Part shown: one piece after another, positions 2,279 through 37,625 of the stretch | How positions within the stretch are numbered: position 1 is the first letter of the stretch | Layout: every line of letters begins with the position of its first letter | DNA from: an uncultured Bacteroidia bacterium | GTDB taxonomy: Bacteria; Bacteroidota; Bacteroidia; Bacteroidales; UBA932 | Direction of reading: 5' to 3' | Assembly: GCA_902788095.1 (NCBI GenBank) | Contig: CADAIT010000009.1 | Span: forward strand, 1-64,000 | Length of the DNA: 64,000 nt | Made by a program: the position numbers and the translations under genes | Notes under the pieces: generated by a model | The model's input: the letters and a program-made list of their open reading frames with translations, nothing else | Told to the model about the DNA's origin: nothing | Database searches by the model: none

Positions 2279-2292
2279 CGTTTAGCAGGTTA

Positions 2293-2754: not shown

Positions 2755-2770
2755 GCGGCGGAACGGGGCT

Positions 2771-3817
2771 TTACCGGGCGTCCAAGGCCCAGATGATGGC
2801 TTCCTCGTACACCTCGCCGGGGCGAAGGACGGTGGAGGGGAAATCCGGGCGGTTGGGAGAATCCGGGCAGTGCTGGCACTCGATGGCCACGGCATCGTAG
2901 TCCTGGTATGCGCGGCCTGTTTTTCCGGCGGGGCAGCCTACGAGCCAGTTGCCGGTATATACCTGCACGGCGGGCTGGGTGGTAAGCACCTCCAAATGGC
3001 GGCCGGACGTAGTTCCCCACAGCTCTGCGGCAGGAGTTAACTGGCCGGACATGGCGCCGTCAATGAGGTAGCAGTTGTCATAGCCCTTCCCATATTTGAG
3101 CGCGGGGAAATCGGCATGGATGTCCCGGCCGATTTCCTTGGCCTCCACAAAATCCATGGGGGTTCCGGCCACGTCCTGCGGCTCGCCGACCGGGATGAGC
3201 GTTTCATCCGTAGGCAGCCACTGGGAGGCGTTGAGCTCCAGTTTATGCTTGAGAACCGTGCCCGAGGCCTCTCCGTCCAGGTTAAAATATACGTGGTTGG
3301 TAAGGTTTACCACGGTGGGCTTGTCCGTTTCCGCGGTCAGCACCAGCTTGAGGGAGTTGTCCTCTCCCCAGGTGTAATGGGCCACGACTTTCAGGTTTCC
3401 GGGATAGCCGGCTTCCCCGTCCTCGGAAAAGTACATGAATTCCACGGCATCATCCGCAATGCGGCTTTCCCAAACCTGGTTTTGGAAGCCTTCCGGGCCG
3501 CCGTGCAGGTGGTTGGGGCCGTTATTGACGGGGAGCGTATATTCCACGCCGTCCAGGGTGAATTTTCCCTTGGCGATACGGTTGGCAAAGCGTCCGGGAA
3601 TTTTACCGCAGCAGGGGCCGTCGCCAAAATAATCGGCCGCATTTTTATAGCCGATGACAACGTCTTCCAGCTTGCCGTTGCGGTCCGGGACCACCATGCG
3701 TACGATGGCCGCACCCACGCTGCCCAGCTGCACATAGGCGCCGGAGGTATTTTTCAAGGTGTACAGGAAAATCTGCTTTCCGTCGGGCGCAGTGCCCCAT
3801 AACTCTTTGGTAATCAT
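2771..3817 (-). CDS. galM: Aldose 1-epimerase (mutarotase)
   Basis: A 348-residue GalM-family protein that interconverts the alpha and beta anomers of aldoses such as galactose, feeding the Leloir pathway. Family signatures are visible: GRFANRIAKGKF, then NGPNHLHGGPEGFQNQVW with a conserved His, a second conserved His in NLTNHVYFNLDG, and the catalytic-Glu region AIECQHCPDSPN near the C-terminus. Length is normal, and there is no signal peptide, so it is probably cytoplasmic. Its ATG overlaps the folA stop in an ATGA arrangement, so the two are translationally coupled. It is the last gene of a minus-strand run that begins with galK, so both galactose genes may share a transcript. Confidence 0.93.
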   Translation of the reverse strand: MITKELWGTAPDGKQIFLYTLKNTSGAYVQLGSVGAAIVRMVVPDRNGKLEDVVIGYKNAADYFGDGPCCGKIPGRFANRIAKGKFTLDGVEYTLPVNNGPNHLHGGPEGFQNQVWESRIADDAVEFMYFSEDGEAGYPGNLKVVAHYTWGEDNSLKLVLTAETDKPTVVNLTNHVYFNLDGEASGTVLKHKLELNASQWLPTDETLIPVGEPQDVAGTPMDFVEAKEIGRDIHADFPALKYGKGYDNCYLIDGAMSGQLTPAAELWGTTSGRHLEVLTTQPAVQVYTGNWLVGCPAGKTGRAYQDYDAVAIECQHCPDSPNRPDFPSTVLRPGEVYEEAIIWALDAR

Positions 3818-4311
3818 ATTCTTTTCCGATAAATCACGAATTCAAAGCGATAGCCGGTCTCCGGGTCCGTGAAGGTTTCCGAACAACTCTCGCGCTCCCA
3901 AATTTCCGGGTCGATGGGCGGGAAAAAGACATCGGCCTCGGGGACCGTCGCATGCACGTGGGTGATGTACAGCAGGTCCATCTCCGGCATGGCAGCCTTG
4001 TACACGGACGCTCCGCCCATGATGAAGCACTTTTCCGCGCCCGTAGCTTCCGCCTCCGCATAGGCCTCCTCGAAAGAATACACGCAGGAGACCTCCGGAA
4101 TGGGGTCTCCGCCCAGATTCAGGACGATATTCTTGCGTCCGGGAAGCGGCCGCAGCGGCAGGGAAAAATACGTGGTGCGCCCCATGATGACGGGAAATCC
4201 CCTGGTGGTGCGCTTGAAATATTGCAAATCGGCGGAAATGTGCCACGGAAGGGTGCCCTTCACGCCAATTTCATTGTTTTGGCCGATGGCCACAATCAAA
4301 CATTTTTGCAT
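3814..4311 (-). CDS. folA: Dihydrofolate reductase
   Basis: A 165-residue DHFR that reduces dihydrofolate to tetrahydrofolate with NADPH, regenerating the folate oxidised by ThyA. Visible are the N-terminal strand MQKCLIVAIGQNNEIGVKG, the substrate-binding Asp28 in LPWHISADLQYFK, the NADPH-binding IMGRTTYFSLP, the GG turn of CFIMGGASVYKAAMP, and YITHVHA. I chose the ATG at 4309-4311; the frame is open upstream, but that part is coded by a dispersed repeat and thyA sequence. It lies 31 bases after thyA and overlaps galM by 4 bases. Confidence 0.95.
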   Translation of the reverse strand: MQKCLIVAIGQNNEIGVKGTLPWHISADLQYFKRTTRGFPVIMGRTTYFSLPLRPLPGRKNIVLNLGGDPIPEVSCVYSFEEAYAEAEATGAEKCFIMGGASVYKAAMPEMDLLYITHVHATVPEADVFFPPIDPEIWERESCSETFTDPETGYRFEFVIYRKRI

Positions 4312-4318
4312 GGTCAAT

Positions 4319-4344
4319 GTCATTCTGAGCAAAGCGAAGAATCT
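4319..4344. repeat. Dispersed palindromic repeat copy 1 (thyA-folA gap)
   Basis: GTCATTCTGAGCAAAGCGAA plus GAATCT: arms ATTCT and AGAAT around an 11-bp loop. It starts at the thyA stop codon and fills the thyA-folA gap. Confidence 0.75.
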
Positions 4345-5137
4345 ACACCGCCACCGGCGCCTTGATGGCCGGCCACGGGTCATAAGCCTCCAGGGTAAAA
4401 TCCTCGTACCGGAAGTCGAAAACGGACTTGACATCCGGATTCAGATGCATGACAGGCAGCCTCCGCGGCTCCCGGGACAGCTGCAGGGCCACTTGTTCGA
4501 AGTGGTTCCTGTAGATGTGCGTGTCCCCGGTTGTGTGAATGAACTCACCGGGCTGCAGGCCGCAGACCTGCGCAATCATCATGGTAAGAAGGGCATACGA
4601 GGCAATGTTGAACGGTACTCCCAGAAAAACGTCGGCGCTTCGCTGGTACAGCTGGCAGGAGAGCTTGCCCTCCGCGACATAGAACTGGAACAGGCAGTGG
4701 CAGGGCGGCAGGGCCATTTTGTCCACCTCCCCGGGATTCCAGGCGGTGACCAGCATACGGCGGGAGTCCGGATGATGCTTAATCTGGTCGATCACCTGCG
4801 ACAGCTGATCGATGCTGCGTCCGTCCGGAGCAGGCCAGGAACGCCACTGGTGGCCATATACGGGGCCCAGTTCGCCGTCGGGCCCGGCCCATTCGTCCCA
4901 GATGGTGACGCCGTGCTCCTGAAGCCAGCGCACGTTGGTGTTGCCGGAAATGAACCACAGAAGCTCATAGATGATGGATTTAAGGTGTACCTTTTTGGTG
5001 GTAAGCAACGGGAAACCGTCCGCCAGGTTAAAGCGCATCTGATAGCCGAACACGCTCTGCGTGCCCGTCCCCGTGCGGTCTTCCTTCATGACGCCATGTT
5101 CCCGGATATGTTGCAGGAGCTCTAAATACTGTCGCAT
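4343..5137 (-). CDS. thyA: Thymidylate synthase
   Basis: A 264-residue ThyA, the exact length of the E. coli enzyme. It methylates dUMP to dTMP using methylene-tetrahydrofolate, producing dihydrofolate for the adjacent folA product. Visible are [16 protein letters not shown], the [10 protein letters not shown] segment, the nucleophile Cys146 in [22 protein letters not shown], and the dUMP-binding [19 protein letters not shown] start at MRQYLELL, which aligns with family starts, rather than five codons upstream. A -7 box ends only 4 bases before this ATG, suggesting a leaderless or very short-leader mRNA. Confidence 0.96.
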
Positions 5138-5141
5138 ACCA

Positions 5142-5149
5142 CAAATGTA
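5142..5149 (-). promoter_or_regulatory. -7 box directly before thyA
   Basis: TACATTTG fits TAnnTTTG and ends 4 bases before the ATG. No good TTTG is seen at the -33 distance. If used, transcription would start at about the A of the start codon. Confidence 0.4.
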
Positions 5150-5197
5150 CACATTTTTTCGGGAAGTTGACGCTTCGCCGCCGGCTCATCCACATTT

Positions 5198-6532
5198 TTA
5201 CAGAAGCAGGTTGGAGAGGAACACCACAGCAATGCCGATGGGTGCCAGGTAACGCACGAGTATGTACACCGCGCCGAAGATGCGCTTGTTGCAGGTGCCG
5301 CCGTTGGTGAGTTCGTCACGGACATCGGCCTTGGACATGCGCCAGCCTACGAAAAGGGTGAACAGCAGGCCGCCCAGCGGCATCAGCCAGTCCGAGCAGA
5401 GGGAATCCAGGAAATCGAAGAAGCCTTTTCCGAGCAGCTGCACATGCGCCATCGGCCCGAACGACAGTGAGCACAACACGCCCAGCGCCCAGGATGCCAG
5501 CGCCAGTACCAGCGTGCTGCGTTTGCGGCTCCAGCCTTTTTCCTCCACCAGATAGGCTACACCCACCTCCAGGAGGGAGATGGACGATGTGAGCGCCGCT
5601 ATGAGAATGGAAAAGAAGAAAAGGATGGCCACCACCGTCCCGGCACCGTGCATCTGGCTGAAAATATAGGGCAGCGTGTCGAACACCAGTCCCGGGCCCT
5701 GTCCGGGCTGGATGCCGGCGGCAAATACGGCGGGCATGACGGCGAATCCGGCCAGCAAGGCAAACAGCAGGTCCGACAGGGCCGTGTATGTCCCCGCCGC
5801 CACCACGTTATCCTCCTTGCGCATGTAGGACGCGTATGTCAGGATGGTGCCTACACCCAGCGACAGCGAGAAAAAGGCCTGCCCCATGGCCGTGGCAATG
5901 ACATTGACATTGATTTTCGAAAGGTCCGGCCTGACAAGGTATTCCACCCCCTTCCAGGAACCGGGCAACGTGAGCCCGTAAACAACGATGACAATAATGA
6001 GCAGGAAGAGCAGCGGCATGGTGATTTTGGTGAACTTCTCAATGCCGTTTTTAACGCCCGCCAGGATGACCGCCGCCGTAAACGCCATGAAGACGGTATG
6101 AGCGGCCAGCGGCTCCCAGGTGGAGGTAATAAAGCGTTCGAAAATGCCGGACGTGTCGCCCGTAAACTGCAACGTGACGGCCTTGAAAAGGTAATCCACC
6201 GACCAGCCCCCCACCACGCTGTAATAACTGAGCAGAAGGAGCGGAGCCGCCACCGTGATAAGCCCCATCCACTTCCACGCGCTTCCGGGCGCCAGTTTTT
6301 CCATGGCGCTGAAGGTATTGCCGCCGCCGCGCCGGCCGATAACCGCCTCTGCGAAGAAAATGGGCAAGGCCAGCACGAAACACGCCACCAGGTAAACCAG
6401 AATGAACGCCGCGCCGCCGTTCTGGCCCACCAGGTAAGGGAATCGCCAGATATTGCCCAGGCCGATAGCCGAGCCCGCCATGGCCAGGACTGCGGCCAGC
6501 TTACCACCGAATGTTTCTCTGGAGGCTGCCAT
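5198..6532 (-). CDS. Sodium-dependent transporter of the SNF/NSS family
   Basis: A 444-residue polytopic membrane protein of the neurotransmitter:sodium symporter family, which imports amino acids or related solutes with Na+. The diagnostic first helix is present (LAMAGSAIGLGNIWRFPYLV, then GQNGGAAF), as are about 11 further hydrophobic segments, including the unwound-helix region ATAMGQAFFSLSLGVGTILTY. The substrate cannot be predicted. It starts 11 bases after the CpXC gene and ends 60 bases before thyA in the same direction, so it is probably cotranscribed with the genes upstream. Confidence 0.9.
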   Translation of the reverse strand: MAASRETFGGKLAAVLAMAGSAIGLGNIWRFPYLVGQNGGAAFILVYLVACFVLALPIFFAEAVIGRRGGGNTFSAMEKLAPGSAWKWMGLITVAAPLLLLSYYSVVGGWSVDYLFKAVTLQFTGDTSGIFERFITSTWEPLAAHTVFMAFTAAVILAGVKNGIEKFTKITMPLLFLLIIVIVVYGLTLPGSWKGVEYLVRPDLSKINVNVIATAMGQAFFSLSLGVGTILTYASYMRKEDNVVAAGTYTALSDLLFALLAGFAVMPAVFAAGIQPGQGPGLVFDTLPYIFSQMHGAGTVVAILFFFSILIAALTSSISLLEVGVAYLVEEKGWSRKRSTLVLALASWALGVLCSLSFGPMAHVQLLGKGFFDFLDSLCSDWLMPLGGLLFTLFVGWRMSKADVRDELTNGGTCNKRIFGAVYILVRYLAPIGIAVVFLSNLLL

Positions 6533-24209: not shown

Positions 24210-25190
24210 TTACATGTTTTTTTGCAGTACAAGGACTTCCTCCTGTGGTAATTGGGTGTGCTTGGATACAAATGCGGGATCCAGACCTTCTGCAAGCATG
24301 CTTTTAGCCAACTCCCGTCGTGCTCTTGCTTCACCCTCTGCCATTCCCTCTGCTTTTCCTTTTTCCATACCATCGATGAAGCCGTCCTCGTAGTAGGCAG
24401 TACCTATGTCCAGTCTTTCTTCTTCGGTAATCATATTGCGGAAATATTTTGTCAATGCTTCTTCCGGAAATCCGGGCATGCGTGCCTCCTCTGCTATGAC
24501 TGCGTAGCGTTTGCCCATATCTTCCGGTTTTCCTGCAAATATACGCATATTTGCGAGAATATAAAACCAACTCTGCACTGGATCAAGCCCATCGATACCA
24601 GTTGCTTGTAAGCGAGGTAACTCGCAGAAATAAATGGATAGCAAGTCGTTGTAGCGCTCTCCGGAAGTTTGCTCGCAAATTGAGTATCTATACACCAGCT
24701 GGTCCGTCTCATGGTGCATCTTGAAGTCCATGAAACAAATCACGTACACAGGTTTCAGGGACGAATACGGCTCGCGGGGCTTTAACTGACTATGCAACAT
24801 GGAAGCGCCATAGTACAACATCCGGCTCTTGAACGACGTCTTTTTCTTCCTTTGCATTTCAACAATGAATTCCTTCCCATCCACGGTATGACACAGTACG
24901 TCCATGATTACGTTCTTGTCATCCGGGCGCATTTTGTCAATTTCGTTGGGCAACATCTGCACGGAGTCAATCTCTTCCGGCAGGAAGTCGTTAAGGAGCA
25001 TTTTCAGTATGTCTGTGTTTTGTAACACATGTTTGAATGCCCAGTCGCATCGGAGGTCCATGTACGGATGGTCCAGAATGGAAATAACAATCTGTTCCTT
25101 CTCTTTATCAGAGAGGTCTCTGTATCGTTCCACCTCATTGACGATGGCAACGAATTTGCGCATCTGCGCAGGAGTCATCTTCATGTTCAT
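24210..25190 (-). CDS. Rpn-family recombination-promoting nuclease/putative transposase
   Basis: A 326-residue PD-(D/E)xK nuclease-family transposase (Rpn type, formerly PF12784-like). Nuclease motifs are present: LRCDWAFKHVLQNTD near residue 47, then Asp97 (IMDVLCHTVDG) and Glu111-x-Gln113 (FIVEMQRKKK), the expected D...ExK-like core with Gln in place of Lys as in many members. The tail has the GKAEGMAEGEA low-complexity stretch and ends FVSKHTQLPQEEVLVLQ, shared with the pseudogene at 30988. Rpn enzymes nick or cut DNA and promote RecA-independent recombination. It sits between two inverted copies of one terminator sequence and behind an 87-bp leader repeated at 31544. Confidence 0.88.
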   Translation of the reverse strand: MNMKMTPAQMRKFVAIVNEVERYRDLSDKEKEQIVISILDHPYMDLRCDWAFKHVLQNTDILKMLLNDFLPEEIDSVQMLPNEIDKMRPDDKNVIMDVLCHTVDGKEFIVEMQRKKKTSFKSRMLYYGASMLHSQLKPREPYSSLKPVYVICFMDFKMHHETDQLVYRYSICEQTSGERYNDLLSIYFCELPRLQATGIDGLDPVQSWFYILANMRIFAGKPEDMGKRYAVIAEEARMPGFPEEALTKYFRNMITEEERLDIGTAYYEDGFIDGMEKGKAEGMAEGEARARRELAKSMLAEGLDPAFVSKHTQLPQEEVLVLQKNM

Positions 25191-26201: not shown

Positions 26202-27626
26202 CTATTTCTTGCCTAAAGTTTTGTTATAGTTGATTTCGGCATCAGGGATGGGCCAGAAGTAATTGCTGGCGGTAGGAGCAACGTCAAGATCCACGGAATG
26301 GTAGTCCTTGACAAAGTTTTCGCCACGGCGGATAATGTCGATACCACGGATGCCTTCGCAGATAAATTCAAGGCGGCGTTCCTTGATGATGGCCGTGGTA
26401 AGGTTGCCTCCGGTCAGACCATCGACATCCAGCATGTCACGGGTAGGAATGGCGCGGGACCGCACTTCCTTGAGGGCGGCTTTTGCCTTTGAGGAGCCGT
26501 TGGCATCGTGCGTGTAGCACTCGGCAAGGTTCAGCAGAGTTTCTGCATAACGCATGAGCGGAATCCAATCCTGCTTCTGCGCCTTGTCGGTGAACTTCAG
26601 GGAGTATACGTAGCCATTGCTGTCTTTGTCGGAAATGAGGTCGGAAATACGCTTGTCCACATCCTGGGAATACGCGTCTTCGGCAAGGATGCCGGTTTCG
26701 GTATTCAGCCAGCAAACCTGGGCGTCGATACTGTAGTATTCCGCGCAGCTCATCTGGGTGTTGGGCTGGTCTCCGGGCTGGATGGACATAGGCAGGGCAA
26801 AGATAAGTTCCGGGCACTCATAGGTTCCTGCGCCATAAATCTTGGTCACATCCGGAGCCAGGGAGTAGCCGGTAATGGAAGTGCCTTCCGTAATGGCATT
26901 TCCCCATTCTTCCATAGCCATATAGACACGCATTCTGAGCATGTGTGCTGCTGCTGCGTTGGCGCGGGTTACACCGTCGAAAGTGCCGGGAGCGCTGGGA
27001 AGGTCCGCAGGGATGCAGTCTGCAAGAATCTGCGTATAAATGTCCTTGATGGGTGCTGCGGGGCAGTCGTTGTTACCGGAAGAAGTAAGGGCGGTAAGAC
27101 GCAGCGGCACGGCAAGGGCATCGGGATTGATGGAATACGGCAGGGAATAGAGGTTGGCCAGCACATAATAGCAATAGGCGCGAAGGAATTTTGCCTCTGC
27201 AATATACTGCTTGTAAAGGTCTTCGCCGATAACCTCCTTGCAATTGTATTTGTCCAGGTTCTCGATAAAGATGTTGCAGGTATTAATGGTCCAGTAAGCA
27301 TAGTTCCAAATGCGGCCATTCTCCTGGGTTGTGGACAGGACCCTCATTTCATAGGTGTCCTGCATGGTGACAGGGTTGGAGATGTTGACGATGTCTTCTC
27401 CGCGGCAGTCGAACACGATATAGGCGAGGCCTCCCATAAAGCTGGGATTGGTGCTCTTGAAAGCGTTGTAGCAGCCAAGGAGAGCAGTCTTTATATAGTC
27501 TGCATCGGCGAAGATGACACTCTCGGTCATGGAATACGGTTTATCCAGTTCAATGAATTCCTTTTTGCAGGAACCAAGGGAAACCACCGCAGTAAGTATA
27601 GCAAGAAGTTTGATGATATTCTTCAT
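26202..27626 (-). CDS. SusD/RagB-family surface lipoprotein
   Basis: A 474-residue SusD-family lipoprotein with lipobox Cys20 (SLGSC). It has the N-terminal TPR-like helices (YIAEAKFLRAYCYYVLANLY), the middle variable region, and the C-terminal SusD signature (KAQKQDWIPLMRYAETLLNL, ALKEVRSRAIPTRDM, then ERRLEFICEGIRGIDIIRRG). It acts as the lid of the SusC channel and captures substrate at the cell surface. It follows susC by 19 bases. The GIRGxDxxRRG motif is intact and the length is typical. Confidence 0.93.
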   Translation of the reverse strand: MKNIIKLLAILTAVVSLGSCKKEFIELDKPYSMTESVIFADADYIKTALLGCYNAFKSTNPSFMGGLAYIVFDCRGEDIVNISNPVTMQDTYEMRVLSTTQENGRIWNYAYWTINTCNIFIENLDKYNCKEVIGEDLYKQYIAEAKFLRAYCYYVLANLYSLPYSINPDALAVPLRLTALTSSGNNDCPAAPIKDIYTQILADCIPADLPSAPGTFDGVTRANAAAAHMLRMRVYMAMEEWGNAITEGTSITGYSLAPDVTKIYGAGTYECPELIFALPMSIQPGDQPNTQMSCAEYYSIDAQVCWLNTETGILAEDAYSQDVDKRISDLISDKDSNGYVYSLKFTDKAQKQDWIPLMRYAETLLNLAECYTHDANGSSKAKAALKEVRSRAIPTRDMLDVDGLTGGNLTTAIIKERRLEFICEGIRGIDIIRRGENFVKDYHSVDLDVAPTASNYFWPIPDAEINYNKTLGKK

Positions 27627-27645: not shown

Positions 27646-30600
27646 TTAGAATGCAACCTGAACGCCAAGGGTGTACGTGCGTGCCTGCGGCAGCGTGTTC
27701 TTGTAGTAACCGCCGGACAGCACAGCCTGGGAGGTATAAGAAGAAGTGATTTCAGGATCCAGACCGGTAAAGGCCGTGAGAACGAACACATTCTGGATCT
27801 GAGCGTAAGCGCGGATGGAAGACAGGCCGATAATCTTGTTCTTGGGCTTGTAGGTGTAGCCGAAGGTGATGTTCTTCAAACGGAGATAATCGCCTTTCTC
27901 GATCCAGTCGGTGATTTCCATGGCAGAGCCGTTGGAGGTGCTGTCACCGTAGATGGGCTTTGCATACTTTGCATTGTCGCCGGGCTGTTTCCAGCTCTTT
28001 TCCGCAACTTCGGCAAGGTTGTTCCACCAGCGGTTGTCAGAACCGGTCGCGGTCATGGCGTTGAGAATCCAGTTGCCGCCGGAGAACTGGAACATGAAGT
28101 TGAGGTCGAAGCCTTTATACTTGAAGTTGTTGGTCCAGCCACCGAACCAGGTAGGAAGGGTGTTACCGGCACGGACCTGAGCGATGTCGCCCTGGAATTC
28201 CGTTCCGTCTTTCAGGAACCAGGCGCCGGCCAGGTAGTCGAAGCGGGTCCATTCACCGTTGGTGCCATAGAAAATACGACAACCGGTTTCGGGGTCGATA
28301 CCGCCGGTAGGGTAGGCATAGAGCTGACCGACGGAGTAACCGGGAAGCGTAATGTTGGCGTCACTGTCGCCGTAAATCTGATCGACGCCCTGCGCAAGCT
28401 CAAGTACCTTGTTGTGAGCAGTTGTGATATTGAAATTGGTGGTCCAGGTGAAGTTCTTATTCCTGATTACATCGGCATTCAAGGTGATTTCAACACCCTT
28501 GTTCTCCATGGAGCCGGTGTTGGTAATCAGCGAACCGATACCCGTGGAGGGGCCCTGAGGAACAGCCATTACCAGATTTCTGGTCTTGGTGTAGTAGTAG
28601 TCGAAATCAAGGCTTACGCGGTTGAAGAGGCTGACATTAAATCCCACGTCCAGTTTACTGGAGGACTCCCAGGCAAGGGAAGAGTCGCCGATGTTGTCCA
28701 GACCCAGAGCGGGAGTGCCACCGTAGTAAACATCGCTGTAATAAGTCTGAGCTCCGTAGTAACCAATGTCGGAGTTACCCACGACACCGTAACTGGCCTT
28801 GATTTTCAGTTCGTCCACAACGGAACGGAGCGGGGCGAAGAATGTCTCTTCAGAGACACGCCATGCACCGGAAACACCCCAGAAATTACCCCATTTGTTG
28901 TTTGCGCCGAGGGAAGAGAGACCATCACGGCGGAAGTTGGCGGAGAGCATGTAACGGGACTTGTAGTCGTAGTTGATACGGCCAAAGTAGGAAACCATGG
29001 ATTTGGCACCTTCGCTACCGCCGGCCTTGATGGTGTTGTAACCGGCGCGGAAGCCCGTGTAGGCCTGGTTCGAGATGTCGCTCGCGTTGATCCAGTCGCT
29101 GCCATAAGAAAGCTTGTAAGCTTCCATACCCACCAGGAAGTCGAAGGTATTGTCCTTGAAAGCGAGGGTATAATTGATGGTGTTGGTCCAGGTCCAGCTG
29201 AGCATGTCGTTCATGGTACGCCAGGCATAACCGTTGTTGCTGACGCCCTGGCCATATTTGGGAGACCAGAAGGTTTCCTCGCCTTCCGACATGTAGTCTA
29301 TGCCGAACTGAGAACGGGCCACCAGGTTCTTGATGGGCTCAACCTGGACAAAACCGCTTGCAATGACACGGTCAGTGTTGATTTTGTTGAAAGATTCTTT
29401 CTGGCCCATCGGGTTGGGATAACCCAGGGAGGCGATATTCACACCACCTACGCCGATATACTGGCCTTTGTTCATAACGTACAGGGAACCGTCCTCATTG
29501 TACGGGAAGGTAATGGGAGGCAGAATCATCGCCTGACGGGGCAGACCGGCAGCGGAGAACACGCCGTCCTGACGGGAAGTGTCGTACACACTGGTGAAAG
29601 CCTTCGAATACTGGCCGTTGATGCCCACCTTGAGCCACTTGGTCACCTGCGTGGAGATGTTGGCCTTGAAGCCGTAGCGCCTGTAGTTATCGCCAATGAC
29701 GATACCCTGGTTGTCGGAGTAGTTGGCCGAAGCATAGTACTGCGTCTTGTCGGAACCGCCGGAAATGGCCACGGTGTGATTCATGACCAGGCCCTTCTTG
29801 TAAATGAGGTCTTTCCAGTTGGTCTTGATGTAATTGCGATTACCGGAAGCATCCAGGGTAAAAGGAAGGTTGAAGGCTTTGTCGCCATAGGGGTTGCCGG
29901 CGCCGCTGATAGCCCTTTCGTCGGTGCCATAGCGGTTTTTGACAGCCATGTTCTTGTAGGCCACGTAAGTGTCCGCATCCATCACGTCGTAGGTCTTGGT
30001 GGGCTCGGTAAAGCCGATGTTCATATCGTACGTTACCTTGGTTTCACCCTTGCGGCCCTGCTTGGTGGTGATGATGATGACACCGCTGGCTGCGCGGGAA
30101 CCGTACAGGGCGGTTGCGGCAGCATCTTTCAGGACGTCGATGGACAGAATGTCGGCCGGGTTGATGTCGGCCAGCGGGTTGGCTTCCATGTAGCTGGCGT
30201 TAACAACGCCGGACTGGATGGGAACGCCATCGACAATGTACAGCGGGTCCGTGCCGCCGGAGATGGAACTGACGCCACGGATGAGAACTTTAGCCTGGGC
30301 ACCGGCACCGGCGTTAGGCGTTGAGACCTGCACACCGGCAGCCTGACCCTGCAGCATAGAGTCGAAGCTCACGTTCGGGGCATCTTTGATGGCGTCTGCC
30401 TTCACGGAAGAGACAGAGGCCGTAACGGTTTTGGCACTCTGGGTGCCATAAGCAATCACCACAACATCATCCAGATATTCTGTATCTGCAGTAAGTTCGC
30501 AGTTGATGGTGGTTTGCCCGTTGATTTCAACCTCGACGGCCTTATAGCCAATCGTGCTGAATACCAGAACGCCCTTGGCAGGTGCAGTAAGGGAATACTG

Positions 30601-30780
30601 CCCATCCAGGTTTGTTGCGGCACCGTGGTTGGTTCCTTTCAGCATTACGGTTGCAGCCGGAAGCGGCTCACCGTTTGCACTGTCGGTAACTACACCTTTG
30701 ATGGTGATATTCTGGGCAAACGCCAGTGTCACGCTAAGAAGCATAGCTACAGACAGGAGAATAAACCTGACTTTTTTCAT
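27646..30780 (-). CDS. SusC/RagA-family TonB-linked outer-membrane transporter (SusCD-1)
   Basis: A 1044-residue TonB-dependent transporter. Signal peptide to about residue 23, a carboxypeptidase-regulatory-like beta-sandwich (ITIKGVVTDSANGEPLPAAT), the SusC plug (VLIRGVSSISGGTDPLYIVD, then GVPIQSG and KDAAATALYGSRAASGVIII), then a 22-strand barrel ending in an aromatic-rich strand (LGVQVAF). It imports the substrate captured by the SusD partner. I start at the second Met (MKKVRF); MLMKK is also possible. Its leader is related to that of the SusC at 32697 and the two genes diverge. No enzyme gene accompanies this locus, so the substrate is open. Confidence 0.93.
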   Translation of the reverse strand: MKKVRFILLSVAMLLSVTLAFAQNITIKGVVTDSANGEPLPAATVMLKGTNHGAATNLDGQYSLTAPAKGVLVFSTIGYKAVEVEINGQTTINCELTADTEYLDDVVVIAYGTQSAKTVTASVSSVKADAIKDAPNVSFDSMLQGQAAGVQVSTPNAGAGAQAKVLIRGVSSISGGTDPLYIVDGVPIQSGVVNASYMEANPLADINPADILSIDVLKDAAATALYGSRAASGVIIITTKQGRKGETKVTYDMNIGFTEPTKTYDVMDADTYVAYKNMAVKNRYGTDERAISGAGNPYGDKAFNLPFTLDASGNRNYIKTNWKDLIYKKGLVMNHTVAISGGSDKTQYYASANYSDNQGIVIGDNYRRYGFKANISTQVTKWLKVGINGQYSKAFTSVYDTSRQDGVFSAAGLPRQAMILPPITFPYNEDGSLYVMNKGQYIGVGGVNIASLGYPNPMGQKESFNKINTDRVIASGFVQVEPIKNLVARSQFGIDYMSEGEETFWSPKYGQGVSNNGYAWRTMNDMLSWTWTNTINYTLAFKDNTFDFLVGMEAYKLSYGSDWINASDISNQAYTGFRAGYNTIKAGGSEGAKSMVSYFGRINYDYKSRYMLSANFRRDGLSSLGANNKWGNFWGVSGAWRVSEETFFAPLRSVVDELKIKASYGVVGNSDIGYYGAQTYYSDVYYGGTPALGLDNIGDSSLAWESSSKLDVGFNVSLFNRVSLDFDYYYTKTRNLVMAVPQGPSTGIGSLITNTGSMENKGVEITLNADVIRNKNFTWTTNFNITTAHNKVLELAQGVDQIYGDSDANITLPGYSVGQLYAYPTGGIDPETGCRIFYGTNGEWTRFDYLAGAWFLKDGTEFQGDIAQVRAGNTLPTWFGGWTNNFKYKGFDLNFMFQFSGGNWILNAMTATGSDNRWWNNLAEVAEKSWKQPGDNAKYAKPIYGDSTSNGSAMEITDWIEKGDYLRLKNITFGYTYKPKNKIIGLSSIRAYAQIQNVFVLTAFTGLDPEITSSYTSQAVLSGGYYKNTLPQARTYTLGVQVAF

Positions 30781-30795
30781 AAGCATGAAATTTAA

Positions 30796-30815
30796 TTAAA
30801 CATAAATATTGATAC
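30796..30815. repeat. 20-bp inverted repeat, left arm (SusC-1 leader)
   Basis: Reverse complement of GTATCAATATTTATGTTTAA, identical to the right arm at 32661-32680. Together the arms enclose 1.85 kb with the invertase-type recombinase. Confidence 0.8.
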
Positions 30816-30833
30816 TCTGATCATTTTGCTCAA

Positions 30834-30871
30834 GCAATGCACAATTTAATGTCCGTATATCAGTGCATTGC
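30834..30871 (-). promoter_or_regulatory. Stem-loop in the SusC-1 leader
   Basis: Arms GCAATGCAC (30834-30842) and GTGCATTGC (30863-30871), a 9-bp perfect stem with a 20-base loop that contains the ATACGGAC motif shared with the SusC-2 leader. Confidence 0.5.
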
Positions 30872-30921
30872 GAAAACGTATCAAAAATTATGTTCCGCTT
30901 ACGGATTGTAAGCTGTACACA

Positions 30922-30958
30922 CAAAAAAAAGACGAAGCACATTTTTATGCCTCGTCTT
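30922..30958 (-). terminator. Terminator after the Rpn pseudogene
   Basis: Minus strand: AAGACGAGGCA, loop, TGCTTCGTCTT, then a run of eight T. It separates the Rpn remnant from the SusC-1 leader. Confidence 0.8.
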
Positions 30959-30987
30959 GCGCTTATGAATGTTGATGTTGCCGGATG

Positions 30988-31499
30988 CTATTTTTGCTCC
31001 TGGAGAACAAGAATTTCTGCCATCGGTATTTGTGTATATTTGGATATAAATGCAGCATCGATGCCATCCTCAAGCATGCGGATGGCAATATCCCGTGAAT
31101 TCTCTGCTTTTCCCTTCGCTTGCCCCTTCGCCTCTGCAGTGGCCAGTTGATTAACCTTATCTCTGATTGTAATCATTTGCTTGATAGATTCGGAACGTTC
31201 CCTGGGTGCAAATTTATTAATTTCGGCAGAATTAAACAATAAGTCAAAGATTTCCCCTTTCAATTCCTTGGGCCGCTCCTCCATCTCCGGCATGTTCTTC
31301 AGCGCATAGCAGAAATTGTCCAGTAACGATGCCTCCTTCGTCATCGCCTTGCTGCAATTGGGAATTTCCAGAAAGATATATTCAACAGGCACAGGCATAT
31401 CCTCCATATTTTCGATATCTCTCAGCCGAATGTCCGTTTGAACCATCTGTCCATCAACACATTGGCATACCTGCCAATCTTCAATTCATTTTGTTCCAT
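30988..31499 (-). pseudogene. Rpn-family nuclease gene with internal deletion
   Basis: ATG at 31497-31499 opens MEQNELKIGRYANVLMDRWF, then KRTFG and a stop: a normal N-terminus for PD-(D/E)xK transposases. In another frame the gene continues from about 31444 with TDIRLRDIENMEDMPVPVEY, then IFLEIPNCSKAM and the tail GQAKGKAENSRD...AFISKYTQIPMAEILVLQEQK. The middle, holding the D and ExQ nuclease core, is gone and the join shifts frame. The remaining 152-codon open frame could only make a fragment. Its tail is homologous to that of the intact Rpn gene at 24210. Confidence 0.8.
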
Positions 31500-31543
31500 G
31501 TTCTTTGGCTTAAGAGACGACCGGACCCGGAAGTCGGTTTGTG

Positions 31544-31631
31544 CAAACATAGAACAAGGATTCCGGAAAACCTACAATCGTAAAAAACATTGTGCTGTTT
31601 CACATGTTTTTTTTGCTGTTTCAACCGATTT
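31544..31631 (-). repeat. 87-bp Rpn leader repeat, copy B
   Basis: Direct copy of 25232-25318 with a few single-base changes, including one extra T in the poly-T run. The minus-strand -7 box TATGTTTG is at 31544-31551. It ends 31 bases before the recombinase ATG. Confidence 0.8.
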
Positions 31632-31662
31632 CGATAGATTCTATATACAAAAAAGTAGTCTT

Positions 31663-32298
31663 ATGATATACGCATATATTCGAGTGAGCACGGAATTGCA
31701 GTCCTATGAAGGACAGCGGTACGAGATAGAGCAATGGGCCGACAGGCGGGGTTGGAACTTGGACAAATGGGTGCAGGAGAAGGTGTCCGGTACAACGGAG
31801 TTGAGAAAACGGACATTGGACAGCCTCCTGAAAAGAATGAAGAAGGGAGATATCCTTATATGCACCGAACTTTCACGCCTGGGTCGCAACATGATGATGG
31901 TGATGGGCATCCTCAACACCTGCTCCCAGAAGGGAATCAAAATCTACTCCATCAAGGACAATTTTGAGTTGTCGGACTCGCTGAACGCCAAAATCATCGC
32001 CTTTGCTTTCTCGCTGGCGGCGGAGATTGAGCGCAACCTTATATCACAACGCACGCGCGAGGCGCTGGCCGCAAAGAAACAGGTGGGGTTCAAGTTGGGC
32101 CGACCCTGCGGAAAGAGTCGGGAACGGAGAAAATTTGAAGAAAGGGAAGCCTATATCCGGGAAGAGTTGAGCCACGGCGCCGCCATCAGCAGGCTGGCGA
32201 TAGAATTGGGGATGCACCGCAACACGCTGTCCCGGTATTTGAAGGAGAACTTGCGTGAGGATTCCTGCCCGGAATTCGCGCGCAAAGAACAGGTATGA
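31663..32298 (+). CDS. Serine recombinase of the Mpi DNA-invertase type
   Basis: A 211-residue small serine recombinase. The catalytic domain starts MIYAYIRVSTELQSYEGQRY with the nucleophilic Ser in RVST. It continues LICTELSRLGRNMMMVMGIL with the conserved Arg residues, then the E-helix IIAFAFSLAAEIERNLISQR, then TREALAAKK. The C-terminal helix-turn-helix (GAAISRLAIELGMHRNTLSR) binds DNA. The closest named relatives I recall are Mpi-like invertases of Bacteroides fragilis, which flip promoters at capsule loci. It lies between two divergent SusC genes whose leaders are inverted repeats. Length and motifs are complete; the frame is open upstream, but that part is the Rpn leader repeat. Confidence 0.9.
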   Translation: MIYAYIRVSTELQSYEGQRYEIEQWADRRGWNLDKWVQEKVSGTTELRKRTLDSLLKRMKKGDILICTELSRLGRNMMMVMGILNTCSQKGIKIYSIKDNFELSDSLNAKIIAFAFSLAAEIERNLISQRTREALAAKKQVGFKLGRPCGKSRERRKFEEREAYIREELSHGAAISRLAIELGMHRNTLSRYLKENLREDSCPEFARKEQV

Positions 32299-32326
32299 CC
32301 CCCGAAACATGCATAATTATGTAGTT

Positions 32327-32352
32327 ATTTCCGCTTGTGCAGAGGCGGAAAT
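32327..32352 (+). terminator. Possible terminator after the recombinase
   Basis: 8-bp perfect stem ATTTCCGC/GCGGAAAT with a 10-base loop, about 30 bases after the recombinase stop. It lacks a strong U-run. Confidence 0.4.
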
Positions 32353-32560
32353 TACAGGCATTTTAGGCAAACCAAGGGCCTGAAACGGGTAAAATAACGA
32401 TATTCTAAAAAAAATTAAAAAAATTTTAATGTTTTAAATTATCAAGAAAACTTGCAATATTTTCATAAATTATAACTATCTTGCCCCAAAGTTTAATAAA
32501 AAAAAGATTTAAAAACCGAAAAAGACTTAATTTATTGCATATAATGCACTTTTTGGCGGA

Positions 32561-32592
32561 CTTGCAAAATTAAAATTGTTTTCCAATATTTG
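32561..32592 (+). promoter_or_regulatory. Promoter for SusC-2
   Basis: -33 CTTG (32561-32564), 20-bp spacer, -7 AATATTTG (32585-32592). Each box has one mismatch to TTTG and TAnnTTTG. It would give a leader of about 90 nt. Confidence 0.5.
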
Positions 32593-32660
32593 CAGCTGTG
32601 TATCCGTCATTTTATACGGACGTATAGTAGTGTATTGCTTATGCAAAAACTATGACAATT

Positions 32661-32680
32661 GTATCAATATTTATGTTTAA
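32661..32680. repeat. 20-bp inverted repeat, right arm (SusC-2 leader)
   Basis: GTATCAATATTTATGTTTAA, exact inverted copy of 30796-30815. Confidence 0.8.
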
Positions 32681-32696
32681 CTAATCTATTGTGCTT

Positions 32697-35600
32697 ATGA
32701 AAAAAATCCGCATTTTTTTCACGGCCATGGTATTGCTGGCTCTCTCCGTTGCAGCCCAGGCACAGAATATCACTGTGAAGGGTACCGTGTTGAGCGCCTC
32801 CGGTGAGGCCATTGTGGGCGCCAACGTGCTCCTGCAGGGAAGCCGCACCGTTTATACCATGTCGGACGTCAACGGTGAATTCACCCTCAACGTTCCCGCA
32901 AATGGTGTTCTGGATGTGAACTGCATGGGTTACGAAAGCGCCCAGGTTCCGGTGAACAACCGCACATCCATCGCCATCGTCCTCGAAGAAGACAGCCAGC
33001 TGCTGGATGAAACCATCGTGGTTGCCTATGGTACGGCCACCAAGAGTTCATTCACCGGTTCCGCTGCACAGGTGGACAACGAGGTCATCGAGAAGAAAGT
33101 AGCCACCAGCGTTACCAGCGCCCTGGCCGGTACGACTCCCGGCGTGCAGGTTACTTCCTCCAGCGGCGACCCCTCCGGTGGCGGTGCTCCGACAATCCGC
33201 ATCCGCGGTATCGGCTCCATGAGTGCTTCCAACACTCCGCTCTACATTGTGGACGGTGTTCCGTACGATGGTGCCATCTCCGACATCAACCCGCAGGACG
33301 TTGAGTCCATGTCCGTCCTCAAAGACGCTGCCGCCAGCGCCATCTATGGTCACCGCGGTGCGAACGGTGTCGTGATTATCACCACCAAGAAAGGAAAGAG
33401 CGGCGATGCCCAGGTGAAACTGGACGCCCGTTTCGGCGTAAACTCCCGCCTTATCCCGCAGTACGACGTAATCACCGATCCCGGCCAGTACTACGAGACC
33501 CATTACACCATGCTGTACAACCAGTATCTGTATTCCGGTCACTCCGTGGCGGAAAGCTACGCTTACGCCAACAAGTACCTCCTGGATGAGAAAAACGGCG
33601 GTCTGGGTTATCTGGTGTACACCGTTCCCGAAGGACAGAACCTGATTGGTACTAACTTCAAGCTGAACCCCAACGCCAAGTTGGGTTACTCCGACGGTGA
33701 ATACTACTATATCCCGGACGACTGGTACAAGGAGACTTTCCACAATGCATTCCGTCAGGAATACAATGTGAGCGCCTCCGGCGGCGGCAACAAGTTCAAC
33801 TACTACGCCAACGTAGGTTTCCTGCAGAACAAGGGTATCGTAAACAACTCCGACTATAAACGTTATTCCGGCCGTATCAACGCCGACTATCAGGCAAAGA
33901 GCTGGATGCGTTTCTCGACCAGTCTGAGTTTCACGCACTCCGATTCCCAGGCGGCAAACTGGAGCGATTCCTTCGGTTCCTCCGGCAACCTGTTCTACAT
34001 CACCAACAATATCGGCCCTATTTATCCCTTGTATGTGCGTAAGCTGGATGCCAGCGGAAACCCGTACGTGGTAATGGACAGCGACCGTATTGTGTACGAC
34101 TCCAACAACACCAATCAGAAACGTCCTTCCATCGTGGGCAACGCTGTCCGCGACAATGAATTTGACCGCACGCGTTCCTACGCCGACGTCGTCAACGGAA
34201 AGTTCGGCCTGAACCTTACTCCCGTCAAGGGCTTGTCCCTGAGTGCCAACATCGGCTTCACCTCCGACAATACCCGTTCCAGCGCCCTGGGAAGCCAGTT
34301 CGCAAGCTCTTCCACCACGGACGGTTACGTACAGGTGTCGCACGGCCGCATGTTCACCGTGAACCAGCAGTATCTGGCCGAGTATAAGTTCGATATCGCC
34401 AGCCGCCACAATCTGGACTTCCTGGCCGGTTTCGAAAAGTACAGCTATACTTATCAGGCCCTGAGCGGAAGCAACGACCATCTGTTCAATCCGTATATCG
34501 GTGAACTGAACAACGCGGACGGTACCGGTTCCCGCGTGAGCGCAAGTTCCTACACCAACCGCTATGTGACCCAGGGCTTCCTGGCCCGCGCCCAGTACGA
34601 CTTCGACGGCAAGATTTTCGCCTCTGCCTCCTATCGTAGGGATGCTTCCTCCCGCTTCGCGGAAGGTCATCAGTGGGGTAACTTCGGTTCCGTAGGTGCC
34701 GCCTGGCTCATCAGCAAGGAGCCTTGGTTCCATGCTTCTTTTGTGGACATGCTCAAACTGAAAGTGAGCTACGGTGTGCAGGGTAACGACAACCTGAACG
34801 GCTACTACCCTTATGCCGACCAATACACCCACTCCTGGAATGAGGAAACCGGCTATGCCGTGGAACTCGCTTACGTGGGTAATGAAAACCTCACCTGGGA
34901 AACCTCCCATTCTTTCAATATCGGTACGGACTTCGAGCTCTTCAAGGGATATCTGAACGGTACCATCGAGTACTTCTCCCGTAAAACCACGGACCTGCTC
35001 TATTCCAAGAGCGTTCCGCTGAGCGCAGGTAACCCGACCGGCCGTATCCCCGTGAACGTGGGCTCCATCCTGAACAACGGTGTGGAACTTTCCCTGGACG
35101 GCGCCATCATCCGTAACCGCAACGTCAACTGGACGTGGAACTTCAACCTGAGCCACTACAAGAACACCATCCTTTCCCTGGATGACAGCGTGTCCGAGGA
35201 CGGTATCCGCGGCAGCAACTACATCTACAAGGTGGGCGGTTCCCTGTACGAGGCCTACATGTACCGCTATGCCGGCGTGAACAAGGAAACCGGCCAGGCC
35301 CAGTACTACGGTGAGTTCCTGAAGGAAGACGGCGACGACGGAAAGGCAGGCACCTTTGTACAGCGCCCCACCCAGAAGCAGATTGACAACCAGCTCACCG
35401 AAACCAAGGTGGTCACCAGCTTCTCCCAGGCTTCCCAGTATGACATCGGTACCGTACTTCCGGCCGTTTACGGCGGTTTCGGAACCAGCGTCAATGCATA
35501 CGGCGTGGACTTCAGCATTCAGTTGTCCTACCAGCTGGGCGGTAAATACTATGACGGTACTTACCAGAACCTCATGCACACCCAGGCTTCGGCTGGTAAC

Positions 35601-35966
35601 GCTTGGCACAAGGATATCCTGAACGCATGGACCCCTACCAACACCAATACCGACATTCCTCGTAACGACGGCGATATCCAGGTGGCCCAGAGCGCACTCG
35701 ACCGCTTCCTGGTGAGCGCCAGTTACCTGAGCGTGAACAACGTAACCCTCGGTTATACCTTCCCGTCCAAGTGGACCAAGAAACTTCATATCGAAGGTCT
35801 GCGCATCTATGTGGCCGGTGACAACCTGGCCGTCCTTACCGCCCGCAAGGGTATCGACCCGCGCTTCTCCATGGGCCTTGGTTCCATGACCAGCGGCACC
35901 GGTCTGAACAGCGGTTACTATTCCGCCATGCGGAACATCACCGGTGGTATTACCCTTACCTTCTAA
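32697..35966 (+). CDS. SusC/RagA-family TonB-linked outer-membrane transporter (SusCD-2)
   Basis: A 1089-residue transporter. Signal to about residue 23, a carboxypeptidase-like beta-sandwich (ITVKGTVLSASGEAIVGANV), plug motifs TIRIRGIGSMSASNTPLYIV, DGVPYDG and KDAAASAIYGHRGANGVVII, then a long barrel ending GGITLTF. The repertoire of aromatic surface loops differs strongly from SusCD-1, so the substrates probably differ. It is followed after 18 bases by its SusD and then by three lipoprotein genes, and downstream by a surface subtilase. MLMKK six bases earlier is an alternative start. Confidence 0.93.
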   Translation: MKKIRIFFTAMVLLALSVAAQAQNITVKGTVLSASGEAIVGANVLLQGSRTVYTMSDVNGEFTLNVPANGVLDVNCMGYESAQVPVNNRTSIAIVLEEDSQLLDETIVVAYGTATKSSFTGSAAQVDNEVIEKKVATSVTSALAGTTPGVQVTSSSGDPSGGGAPTIRIRGIGSMSASNTPLYIVDGVPYDGAISDINPQDVESMSVLKDAAASAIYGHRGANGVVIITTKKGKSGDAQVKLDARFGVNSRLIPQYDVITDPGQYYETHYTMLYNQYLYSGHSVAESYAYANKYLLDEKNGGLGYLVYTVPEGQNLIGTNFKLNPNAKLGYSDGEYYYIPDDWYKETFHNAFRQEYNVSASGGGNKFNYYANVGFLQNKGIVNNSDYKRYSGRINADYQAKSWMRFSTSLSFTHSDSQAANWSDSFGSSGNLFYITNNIGPIYPLYVRKLDASGNPYVVMDSDRIVYDSNNTNQKRPSIVGNAVRDNEFDRTRSYADVVNGKFGLNLTPVKGLSLSANIGFTSDNTRSSALGSQFASSSTTDGYVQVSHGRMFTVNQQYLAEYKFDIASRHNLDFLAGFEKYSYTYQALSGSNDHLFNPYIGELNNADGTGSRVSASSYTNRYVTQGFLARAQYDFDGKIFASASYRRDASSRFAEGHQWGNFGSVGAAWLISKEPWFHASFVDMLKLKVSYGVQGNDNLNGYYPYADQYTHSWNEETGYAVELAYVGNENLTWETSHSFNIGTDFELFKGYLNGTIEYFSRKTTDLLYSKSVPLSAGNPTGRIPVNVGSILNNGVELSLDGAIIRNRNVNWTWNFNLSHYKNTILSLDDSVSEDGIRGSNYIYKVGGSLYEAYMYRYAGVNKETGQAQYYGEFLKEDGDDGKAGTFVQRPTQKQIDNQLTETKVVTSFSQASQYDIGTVLPAVYGGFGTSVNAYGVDFSIQLSYQLGGKYYDGTYQNLMHTQASAGNAWHKDILNAWTPTNTNTDIPRNDGDIQVAQSALDRFLVSASYLSVNNVTLGYTFPSKWTKKLHIEGLRIYVAGDNLAVLTARKGIDPRFSMGLGSMTSGTGLNSGYYSAMRNITGGITLTF

Positions 35967-35984: not shown

Positions 35985-37625
35985 ATGAAACTCAATAAAT
36001 ATATTCCGGTTTTATTCCTGGGACTCGTGCTGAGCGCTTCCTGCACCAAACTCAGCGAAATTGTCCCTGAGAGCGGCACCATGCTGAAGAGTCAGCTCCA
36101 GTCCACCAATGCCGCTGTACCCACCCGTGCGTCCGCATCGTTCAACGGTCTTTTCAATCCGCTGGGCATGCCCAACTATTACGGTTATGAAACCCCGGAC
36201 GACTTCGGCGTGCTCATGTTGCTCTTCTGCAACGACCTTGAAAGTGCCGATGCCACCGCATCCGACAACAACTACAACTGGTTCTCCGTGTGCGGCGAGT
36301 ATTCTTCCCGTAACGCCAACTACCGTAACCCGGTTATCCGTTACCGTGCTCCTTACAGCATCATTTCTTCCGTGAACGACTTCCTGGCCGGCTTCGGCGA
36401 GGATGTATCGGACGCTGAAAGTCTTGCCATGATGGCTCAGGCCAAGGCCCTTCGTGCCTACGCCTACATGCTGCTGGCCAGCGACTTCCAGTTCAACTAT
36501 ACGGATCACAAGGATGACCTTTGCGTGCCCATCTGCTCGCCGGATGTGGAGGATCCCACCCACAACCCGCGTGCTACCCTGGCCCAGATTTATGAGATTA
36601 TCATGTCGGACCTCAATGACGCTGTCGCCAATCTGGACGGATTTGCCCGTTCCAGCAAAAAGTACATTGACCAGCAGGTAGCCTATGGCCTTCGCGCCCG
36701 CGCCAACCTGAATATGGGCAAATATGCAGAGGCTGCCTCCGATGCCGAAAAGGCTGCTGCCGGCTACACCCCTGCCTCTATTGCCGAGGTGAGCGTCCCT
36801 ACCTTCCAGGACATCAATGAGCACAACTGGATCTGGGGCTTCGACATGACTGCCGATGACGCCAAGGCCTACAAGTATGCCAATACATCGTCCTGGCTGC
36901 GTTCCTTCTCCGGTTATGCTTATGCCGCCGGCACCGCCACATACACCTGTATCAACAAAATCCTGTACAACAAGATTGCCGATACAGACGTGCGCAAGGG
37001 CTGGTGGGTTGATGAAAACCTGTATTCCCCGCTTCTGGACGCTCTTACCTGGAATGCCGGTTCGCAGGGTTCCGCTTCCGGCCAGGGCATCGCCCTGTTC
37101 GAATACGATGACAAACTCGCGTTCGTTCCCTATACCAACGTGAAGTTCGGCTGCACCCCTATCGGCACCATCGACAACGCCGAGGACATGCCGCTCATGC
37201 GCGTGGAAGAGATGATTCTCATCCAGGCGGAAGGTTACCTCAAGAGCGGCAACGAGGGCAAGGCCAAGCAGATTCTGGAGAACTTTGTGAAGACCTACCG
37301 TGATCCGGCATACACTGCCGGCTTCGGCGGCCGTTCCCTGGCCGATGAAATCTGGTTCCAGCGTCGTATCGAACTTTGGGGCGAAGGTTTTGCCATTCAC
37401 GATACCAAGCGCCTGAACAAACCCATGGTGCGTTTCCTGGGCACGCCCGAGAGCACCAACGTATCTCCCGCTTTCCGCTTCAACATGGCAGCCAACGACG
37501 GCTGGCTTCTGATGCGCTTCTCCAGCAGTGAGCTGAACACCAACTTCAGCATCATTGACAATACGGACGGCGAACTGCCCAAGATGGACCAGAACGCCAA
37601 CCTCCGTGACGGTGTTACTGACTAA
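35985..37625 (+). CDS. SusD/RagB-family surface lipoprotein (SusCD-2)
   Basis: A 546-residue SusD-like lipoprotein with lipobox Cys20 (LSASC). TPR-like helices are visible (MMAQAKALRAYAYMLLASDF, then TLAQIYEIIMSDLNDAVANL), as is the C-terminal part (PLMRVEEMILIQAEGYLKSG, then EIWFQRRIELWGEGFAIHDT and KRLNKPM). This is the SusD-like 2/RagB type with WGEG where the classical family has GxR. It forms the lid of the adjacent SusC channel. Confidence 0.92.
   Translation: MKLNKYIPVLFLGLVLSASCTKLSEIVPESGTMLKSQLQSTNAAVPTRASASFNGLFNPLGMPNYYGYETPDDFGVLMLLFCNDLESADATASDNNYNWFSVCGEYSSRNANYRNPVIRYRAPYSIISSVNDFLAGFGEDVSDAESLAMMAQAKALRAYAYMLLASDFQFNYTDHKDDLCVPICSPDVEDPTHNPRATLAQIYEIIMSDLNDAVANLDGFARSSKKYIDQQVAYGLRARANLNMGKYAEAASDAEKAAAGYTPASIAEVSVPTFQDINEHNWIWGFDMTADDAKAYKYANTSSWLRSFSGYAYAAGTATYTCINKILYNKIADTDVRKGWWVDENLYSPLLDALTWNAGSQGSASGQGIALFEYDDKLAFVPYTNVKFGCTPIGTIDNAEDMPLMRVEEMILIQAEGYLKSGNEGKAKQILENFVKTYRDPAYTAGFGGRSLADEIWFQRRIELWGEGFAIHDTKRLNKPMVRFLGTPESTNVSPAFRFNMAANDGWLLMRFSSSELNTNFSIIDNTDGELPKMDQNANLRDGVTD

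Follow-up and report, generated by a model that had tools for sequence, protein, structure and literature searches.

In Salmonella, the gene of the serine invertase Hin and a promoter share one invertible segment (the H segment) with the recombination sites at its ends, and inversion, the basis of flagellar phase variation, switches a single operon, which includes a repressor gene, between on and off. In Campylobacter fetus, one invertible promoter of the sap S-layer system serves either of two opposed surface-protein genes. To our knowledge, most of what is known about invertible promoters of gut Bacteroidales comes from human Bacteroides in culture. In B. fragilis, Mpi inverts capsule promoters; one report on this species gives 13 regions inverted by Mpi and describes phase variation of SusC/SusD by DNA inversion, of the shufflon type at three SusC/SusD clusters and nine other regions (PMC4747536). 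Here we analyse a 64,000-nucleotide (nt) stretch of DNA (the window; positions 1 to 64,000 of contig CADAIT010000009.1, assembly GCA_902788095.1) from an uncultured member of the Bacteroidales, in which an Mpi-like serine recombinase gene lies between two divergent SusC/SusD operons. Judged from the sequence, the segment at about 30.85–32.62 kb is very probably a self-contained inversion switch, that is, a single-promoter toggle between the two operons. Its putative parts and the genes that it would serve are these:

26202..27626, minus strand: SusD-family gene of the left operon (Pfam SusD_RagB and SusD-like_3)
27646..30786, minus strand: left SusC/RagA gene (NCBIfam TIGR04056, 826.9 bits)
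30847..30858, minus strand: likely left crossover core, ATACG-GA-CATTA, second half-site imperfect
30929..30958, minus strand: hairpin terminator toward the left SusC, a 13-pair stem followed by a T run (fold −20.1 kcal/mol, z −6.1)
31663..32298, plus strand: Mpi-like serine recombinase, 211 amino acids (Pfam Resolvase PF00239, 122.4 bits)
32561..32592, plus strand: outward promoter of the Bacteroidota type, CTTG-N20-AATATTTG, facing the right SusC (score 15)
32614..32625, plus strand: likely right crossover core, ATACG-GA-CGTAT, palindromic around its centre
32697..35966, plus strand: right SusC/RagA gene, ATG at 32697 (NCBIfam TIGR04056, 771.5 bits)
35985..37625, plus strand: SusD-family gene of the right operon (Pfam SusD-like_3 and SusD_RagB)

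According to this model, the recombinase encoded in the segment would recombine two inverted ACG-NN-CGT sites that share their central dinucleotide (here GA) and lie one in each of the divergent SusC leaders, and the segment would invert between them. In the assembled orientation, the promoter on the 3′ side of the recombinase would transcribe the right SusC-SusD operon, and the left operon, which a terminator precedes, would have at most weak promoter-like sequence. Inversion would bring the promoter to the left operon, each cell thus mainly expressing one of the two transporters. Like the H segment, such a switch would hold a serine invertase gene and a promoter between its sites, with the difference that each end faces a transporter operon; like sap, it would direct one promoter to either of two opposed genes, with other proteins, another segment and another recombination system. 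With Mpi it has in common the nearest enzyme family, the proposed promoter inversion and a site seemingly in the same frame, but here there is one local pair of sites, a locus-specific centre and two SusC targets. The Tsr0667 shufflons also achieve SusC/SusD phase variation by inversion, but Tsr0667 is a tyrosine recombinase, whereas here a serine recombinase would drive a two-way toggle. Invertible promoters, Mpi and phase variation of SusC/SusD are already documented (PMC12632263, PMC4747536). In the literature searched, in the parts of it that were available, we found no description of two SusC operons separated by a single promoter and an Mpi-like enzyme dedicated to them, a silence that is weak evidence of absence.

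An initial annotation of this DNA had placed an Mpi-class recombinase at 31663 between divergent SusC genes. The arrangement was confirmed by the open reading frame (ORF) and by the Pfam and NCBIfam matches, and SusC and SusD family genes are adjacent on either side of the recombinase, as in SusC/SusD operons. The protein belongs to the serine resolvase/invertase superfamily (PF00239, 122.4 bits against a cut-off of 23.3), and its sequence matches in the PDB are chains of DNA-invertase and gamma-delta resolvase. The class assignment held in part: the Mpi family is indeed the nearest curated one (NCBIfam NF009949, 264 bits), but the score falls below the equivalog cut-off of 272. The same is true of seven relatives of the same genus (235.7–268.6 bits), so that all eight proteins tested score below it, which suggests a switch working like Hin and Mpi and not Mpi itself.

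The association with SusC recurs well beyond the window. The main sample consists of the window and 78 relatives (79 loci), obtained by a scan of 84,980 species genomes, one per species; 20 stretches from relatives of the same genus were additionally taken, at least seven of which overlap with the 78, and the locus counts use only the window and the 78. The members come from Candidatus Cryptobacteroides species, a Candidatus Minthomonas and other Bacteroidales assemblies, many of them from the guts of ruminants and other animals; the window may itself come from a Cryptobacteroides. At least 1.5 kb was available on both sides of the recombinase in 64 of the 79 loci. Outward SusC genes adjoin it on both sides in 48 of these, on one side in 11 and on neither in five, a strict count that leaves out spurious left matches in L178 and L183. 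SusC on both sides was found in 46/56 loci with recombinases at 54% identity or more and in 2/8 below. In a recombinase tree of 85 rows (three of the 79 were too short and were left out, and nine paralogues were added), outward SusC on at least one side was found in 69 of the 72 rows of one clade (support 99/96) and in none of the 13 rows outside it.

Within the genus, all five recombinases with at least 56% identity and room on both sides (L089, L091, L094, L095, L096) lie between outward SusC genes, and two at contig ends (L092, L093) have SusC on the remaining side. Nine stretches of the genus with paralogues at 42–52% identity have no SusC beside the recombinase, four of them (L098, L104, L106, L107) ending within 0.6 kb of it on one side; L108 has a SusC gene 4.8 kb away. 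The window's own assembly (2.16 Mb in 28 contigs, 83% complete, with 14 SusC genes above the family cut-off) encodes one further moderately close paralogue, on contig C3 (47% identity), near which no SusC match was found in that assembly. At L090 (G019:C24, 6186–8538), a paralogous recombinase of about 48% identity lies between inverted copies of GTATCAATATTTATTCTTAT in a stretch without a SusC match.

Where would the recombinase act? The initial annotation had pointed to an exact 20-bp inverted repeat and to a weaker block outside it. The weaker block is real, with arms of 36 nt at 30824–30859 and 32613–32648 that are 78% complementary, and it contains the likely crossover palindrome, which had been missed. 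Comparison of the two arms in each locus led to a short palindrome, AAACG-NN-CGTTT, with ACG-NN-CGT as the shared pattern. We sought the best match to AAACGNNCGTTT on each side irrespective of its centre, with core weights set by hand. Both arms were usable in 50 loci, the others being dropped because only the left (six), only the right (15) or neither (eight) was usable. Read toward SusC, the central dinucleotide is equal on the two sides in 48 of the 50 loci and the reverse complement in none, whereas 10,000 shuffles of the pairing gave a mean of 11.7 equal centres and a maximum of 25. In the two misses, L148 and L162, the second-best right sites do match but score 12 and 11, about background; the 50/50 obtained from picks chosen for equality is not evidence, and 48/50 is the unbiased count. 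The centres found are CT, CC, AC, GA, TC and GT, all non-palindromic, and non-palindromic centres are needed for inversion-only recombination by serine recombinases. By sequence, the window and 48 of the 50 loci thus show one feature of a serine-invertase switch, namely inverted sites with an identical non-palindromic central dinucleotide. Because the centre needs at least 13 changes on the recombinase tree over the 50 loci, the match is not one inherited accident. The window has GA on both arms, neither of its cores being the perfect consensus.

The 1,004,676 bases of the loci contain 45 perfect cores. All of them fall in the interval from 2.1 kb before to 0.7 kb after the recombinase, which makes up 27% of these bases. 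In 41 genomes of the genus, perfect AAACGNNCGTTT cores occur at 59 places compared with 102 for a reversed control, so they are not abundant genome-wide; this count takes in perfect cores only, and degenerate ones escape it. The own genome has ATACGGACRTWW at four places, two of which are the window arms, and one perfect core elsewhere (C4). The Mpi site, named in the initial annotation, is what we take to be ACGTTCGT. That annotation had not seen it, which is right for the exact string; ACG-NN-CGT nonetheless looks like a relative of it with another centre. A primer named B_Frag_PSA_M, as listed in one source, ends in ACGAACGT (PMC10939037).

Some loci have additional cores. Core-like sites between the recombinase and the SusC gene predicted to be off (OFF) were seen, for example, in L126, L170, L150, L136, L124 and L138; those of L126 and L170 seem to bracket promoter-like sequence and would permit more than two states. 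An apparent mismatch of centres (GT against AC) in locus L094/L126 turned out to be wrong: this locus has an extra, reversed core beside its left SusC, and the partner of its right AC core is another AC core.

The two ends of the segment differ in their promoters. Bacteroidota-type promoters consist of TTTG, a spacer of 19–20 nt and TAnnTTTG, and we scored them with a scheme set by hand. The score was higher on the 3′ than on the 5′ side of the recombinase in 47 of the 50 loci, with means of 15.7 (12.9 when shuffled) and 12.4 (12.7 when shuffled), respectively. The promoter box ends 16–22 nt from the core in 48 of the 65 loci with a right arm, and the window promoter lies about 20 nt inward of the right site. 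On the 5′ side, a median of 50 nt separates the start of the recombinase from its core, which usually leaves little room for a promoter; between the recombinase end and the other core the median is 228 nt. Sigma-70-type promoters number four, with 4.3 expected. Toward the left SusC, the hairpin at 30929–30958 is the longer of two terminator-like sites in 30700–32750, a region whose shuffles gave 2.5; it lies upstream of a weak left promoter-like sequence:

30882..30912 (placed by hand), minus strand: weak promoter-like sequence CTTA-N19-AATTTTTG, directed toward the left SusC and located 23 nt inward of the left core (score 13)

We therefore predict that in this assembly the right SusC is on (ON) and the left one OFF or weak. 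The better promoter on the right and the terminator on the left go beyond the initial annotation, which had proposed that inversion exchanges the upstream regions of the two SusC genes. This proposal is strongly supported across relatives, except that the regions exchanged are not equal, a clear promoter being found at one end.

Comparison of species shows the recombinase in both orientations. Orthologous SusC genes at 80% identity or more form 23 pairs in the same predicted state and 24 switched pairs, and four of the seven locus pairs in which both flanks reach 50% are switched. In L132, bases 1–6493 match L134 in inverted orientation (84%) with the two recombinases oriented alike; the recombinase is thus inverted relative to a shared arm of 6.5 kb. 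Breakpoints were measured over all 24 switched pairs. In 23 of them the arm homology does not extend beyond the site: it stops 1–9 nt past the inner edge of the core in four, 46–91 nt before that edge in eight, and 240–400 nt before it in 11, which are uninformative. In the remaining pair, L152/L170, it runs 64 nt beyond the inner edge; on the OFF side, L170 bears another core as well as promoter-like sequence. Inside the core, identity in switched pairs is no higher than in random ON-OFF pairs (58% versus 57%). It is 73% in same-ON pairs (66% without the near-identical L171, L173 and L175) versus 62% in random ON-ON pairs, and 62% in same-OFF pairs versus 58% at random. In 12 of 78 loci, with 2.4 expected, the contig breaks off less than 500 nt from the recombinase; two of the 12 (L146, L176) have no SusC neighbour. 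This excess fits mixed orientations, as if assemblers had stumbled over them, and other causes exist. Comparison among loci thus supports the recurrence, the site rule, the promoter polarity and the switched orientation across species, and inversion would be the best common cause of the strict site pairing, the polarity and the breakpoints.

A different role falls to the exact 20-bp repeat, which the initial annotation had taken for an arm of the inversion. Its sequence is GTATCAATATTTATGTTTAA, and its two copies are:

30796..30815, minus strand: left copy, on the SusC side of the crossover site
32661..32680, plus strand: right copy, in the leader of the right SusC

Both lie where that annotation had put them; they are the only copies in the window with up to three mismatches, and two copies arose in 0/100 dinucleotide-preserving shuffles. 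We rejected the repeat as crossover site, since SusC leaders have it as a general element and since four switched pairs show homology that continues through repeat and core and stops 1–9 nt further on. Its 17-nt core TCAATATTTATGTTTAA, with up to two mismatches, gave 38 matches at ON and 34 at OFF SusC leaders and two elsewhere in the 79 loci, and the element is also found before SusC genes without a recombinase gene in the fetched stretch (G019:C19, G024:C9). The caveat that the repeats may be shared leader ancestry was thus right for this repeat. Lying between the crossover core and the start codon, it would stay with its own SusC gene on inversion. A role in translation or in control by small RNAs is conceivable. 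FopS small RNAs of B. thetaiotaomicron are described as binding susC translation-initiation regions (PMC11697453); a search of the SusC leaders for RNA elements gave no Rfam match at E values up to 1, and in predicted folding the right leader is on a par with its shuffles (z 0.3), whereas the left one is only slightly better than its own (z −1.5). The own assembly has one further copy, with two mismatches, at C17:12943, where no SusC gene was found. This variant, GTATCAATATTTATGTCTGA, occurs at C17:12943–12962 (L003), in G005 and at two places in G019, and with one further change in G028; in L003 it is intergenic, forms an inverted repeat and is flanked by genes resembling, by eye, those of a YitT-type membrane protein and a HAD-type hydrolase.

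Several observations weigh against this interpretation. SusC is lacking on one or both sides in 16 of the 64 loci, ten of which have recombinases of 54% identity or more, and at L100 in G005, where the recombinase is a broken fragment, SusC adjoins just one side. No promoter of its own was found for the recombinase, the score into the gene being 12.7 versus 12.6 for shuffled sequence. The weak left promoter-like sequence scores 13, against 15 on the right and about 12.7 on shuffled 5′ sides, so the left operon may be weakly transcribed and not silent. The two orientations were seen across species and not within any one species. Leader identity outside the core is noisy (switched pairs 60%, same-ON pairs 71%, same-OFF pairs 43%, random pairs 49%), and the loci are related to one another, so that pair counts are not independent. 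In the window itself, the left half-site is imperfect (CATTA) and there is a second candidate core:

31428..31439, minus strand: alternative core AAACG-GA-CATTC, centre GA, probably unused (score 13 versus 12 for the SusC-proximal core)

This was the best left core of the unbiased search in the window and the one that entered the site and promoter counts over the 50 loci. We prefer 30847–30858, because the sister loci L109 and L112 have their best core adjoining SusC, and used it in the arm, consensus and breakpoint comparisons.

The imperfect left site also raises the question of whether the switch still turns. The same switch may be locked in this species, with a decayed left site and the right SusC fixed ON; this seems rather unlikely and would be compatible with the mechanism proposed above. 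The second half of the left core breaks the palindrome. At 856 nt to SusC, the left gap exceeds that of most loci, and the segment holds a gene remnant:

30988..31446, minus strand: Rpn/PD-(D/E)XK family gene within the segment, reduced to its C-terminal part (Pfam PDDEXK_2, 36.6 bits, profile positions 128–229 of 229)

In L109 and L112 a long ORF is found instead. Nevertheless, the recombinase has an open ORF in which, as in six aligned relatives, the motifs YIRVST and SRLGR are preserved; we presume that these motifs take part in catalysis, and the enzyme may then be active. Arms that are not identical are common (28 of the 50 loci, with picks chosen for equal centres), and the central dinucleotide of the window arms does match. 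As judged by position and eye, the ORFs at the same place are those at 5845–6873 of L112 (342 amino acids) and 5957–6943 of L109 (328 amino acids), so an Rpn/PD-(D/E)XK gene rides in the invertible segment within the subclade of the window. A longer member of this family lies at 24210–25190 of the window.

Less probable still is that the locus is mainly a platform for cassette exchange at or near the cores, with promoter inversion as a secondary matter, although exchange and the inversion switch can coexist. Its starting point is the turnover of SusC partners: among 28 locus pairs with both arms and one SusC at 80% or more, the other SusC is shared at 50% or more in one only (L173/L175). Partners thus turn over quickly, and some switched arms may reflect cassette exchange, a further point against inversion as their cause. 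In L120/L157 and L148/L156, a shared SusCD cassette (87–90% DNA identity) lies on opposite sides of the recombinase, and conserved flanks keep their orientation, both of them in L120/L157 and the left one in L148/L156. In L148, an inverted repeat of about 70 bp marks the outer end of each of the two cassettes. Inversion accounts for the strict pairing of centres within loci and for the promoter polarity, neither of which exchange would need; cassettes would also be swapped by homologous recombination in the recombinase gene and in conserved flanks. Finally, that the inverted repeats reflect nothing but shared leader ancestry, with the recombinase acting elsewhere or being a stranded mobile-element resolvase, is very improbable: the exact 20-bp repeat is a leader element found also at SusC genes for which the fetched stretch showed no recombinase, but in dozens of species the recombinase clade adjoins outward SusC genes, leader ancestry would not lead one to expect the core rule, the promoter polarity or the breakpoints, and the 59 places of the perfect core in 41 genomes, against 102 of the control, give no sign of a large, Mpi-like set of remote targets.

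If the segment is the inversion switch that we favour, what would it bring to the organism? As a tentative extension, the locus may be a two-slot expression site with a private invertase, in which mainly one SusCD cassette is transcribed and cassettes are exchanged between slots and species. A lineage would then sample new transporter pairs under one promoter, and each switch, having a central dinucleotide specific to its locus, would remain compatible with itself alone. The benefit of alternating between two transporters may lie in nutrient niche or in escape from phage or immunity. Dozens of Bacteroidales assemblies, often from the guts of ruminants or other animals, have this compact putative toggle between two nutrient transporters. 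With its likely sites defined to the base, the state of the switch should be readable from existing metagenomes, and this readout would make bet-hedging on transporter choice, whether for dietary, phage or immune reasons, directly testable.

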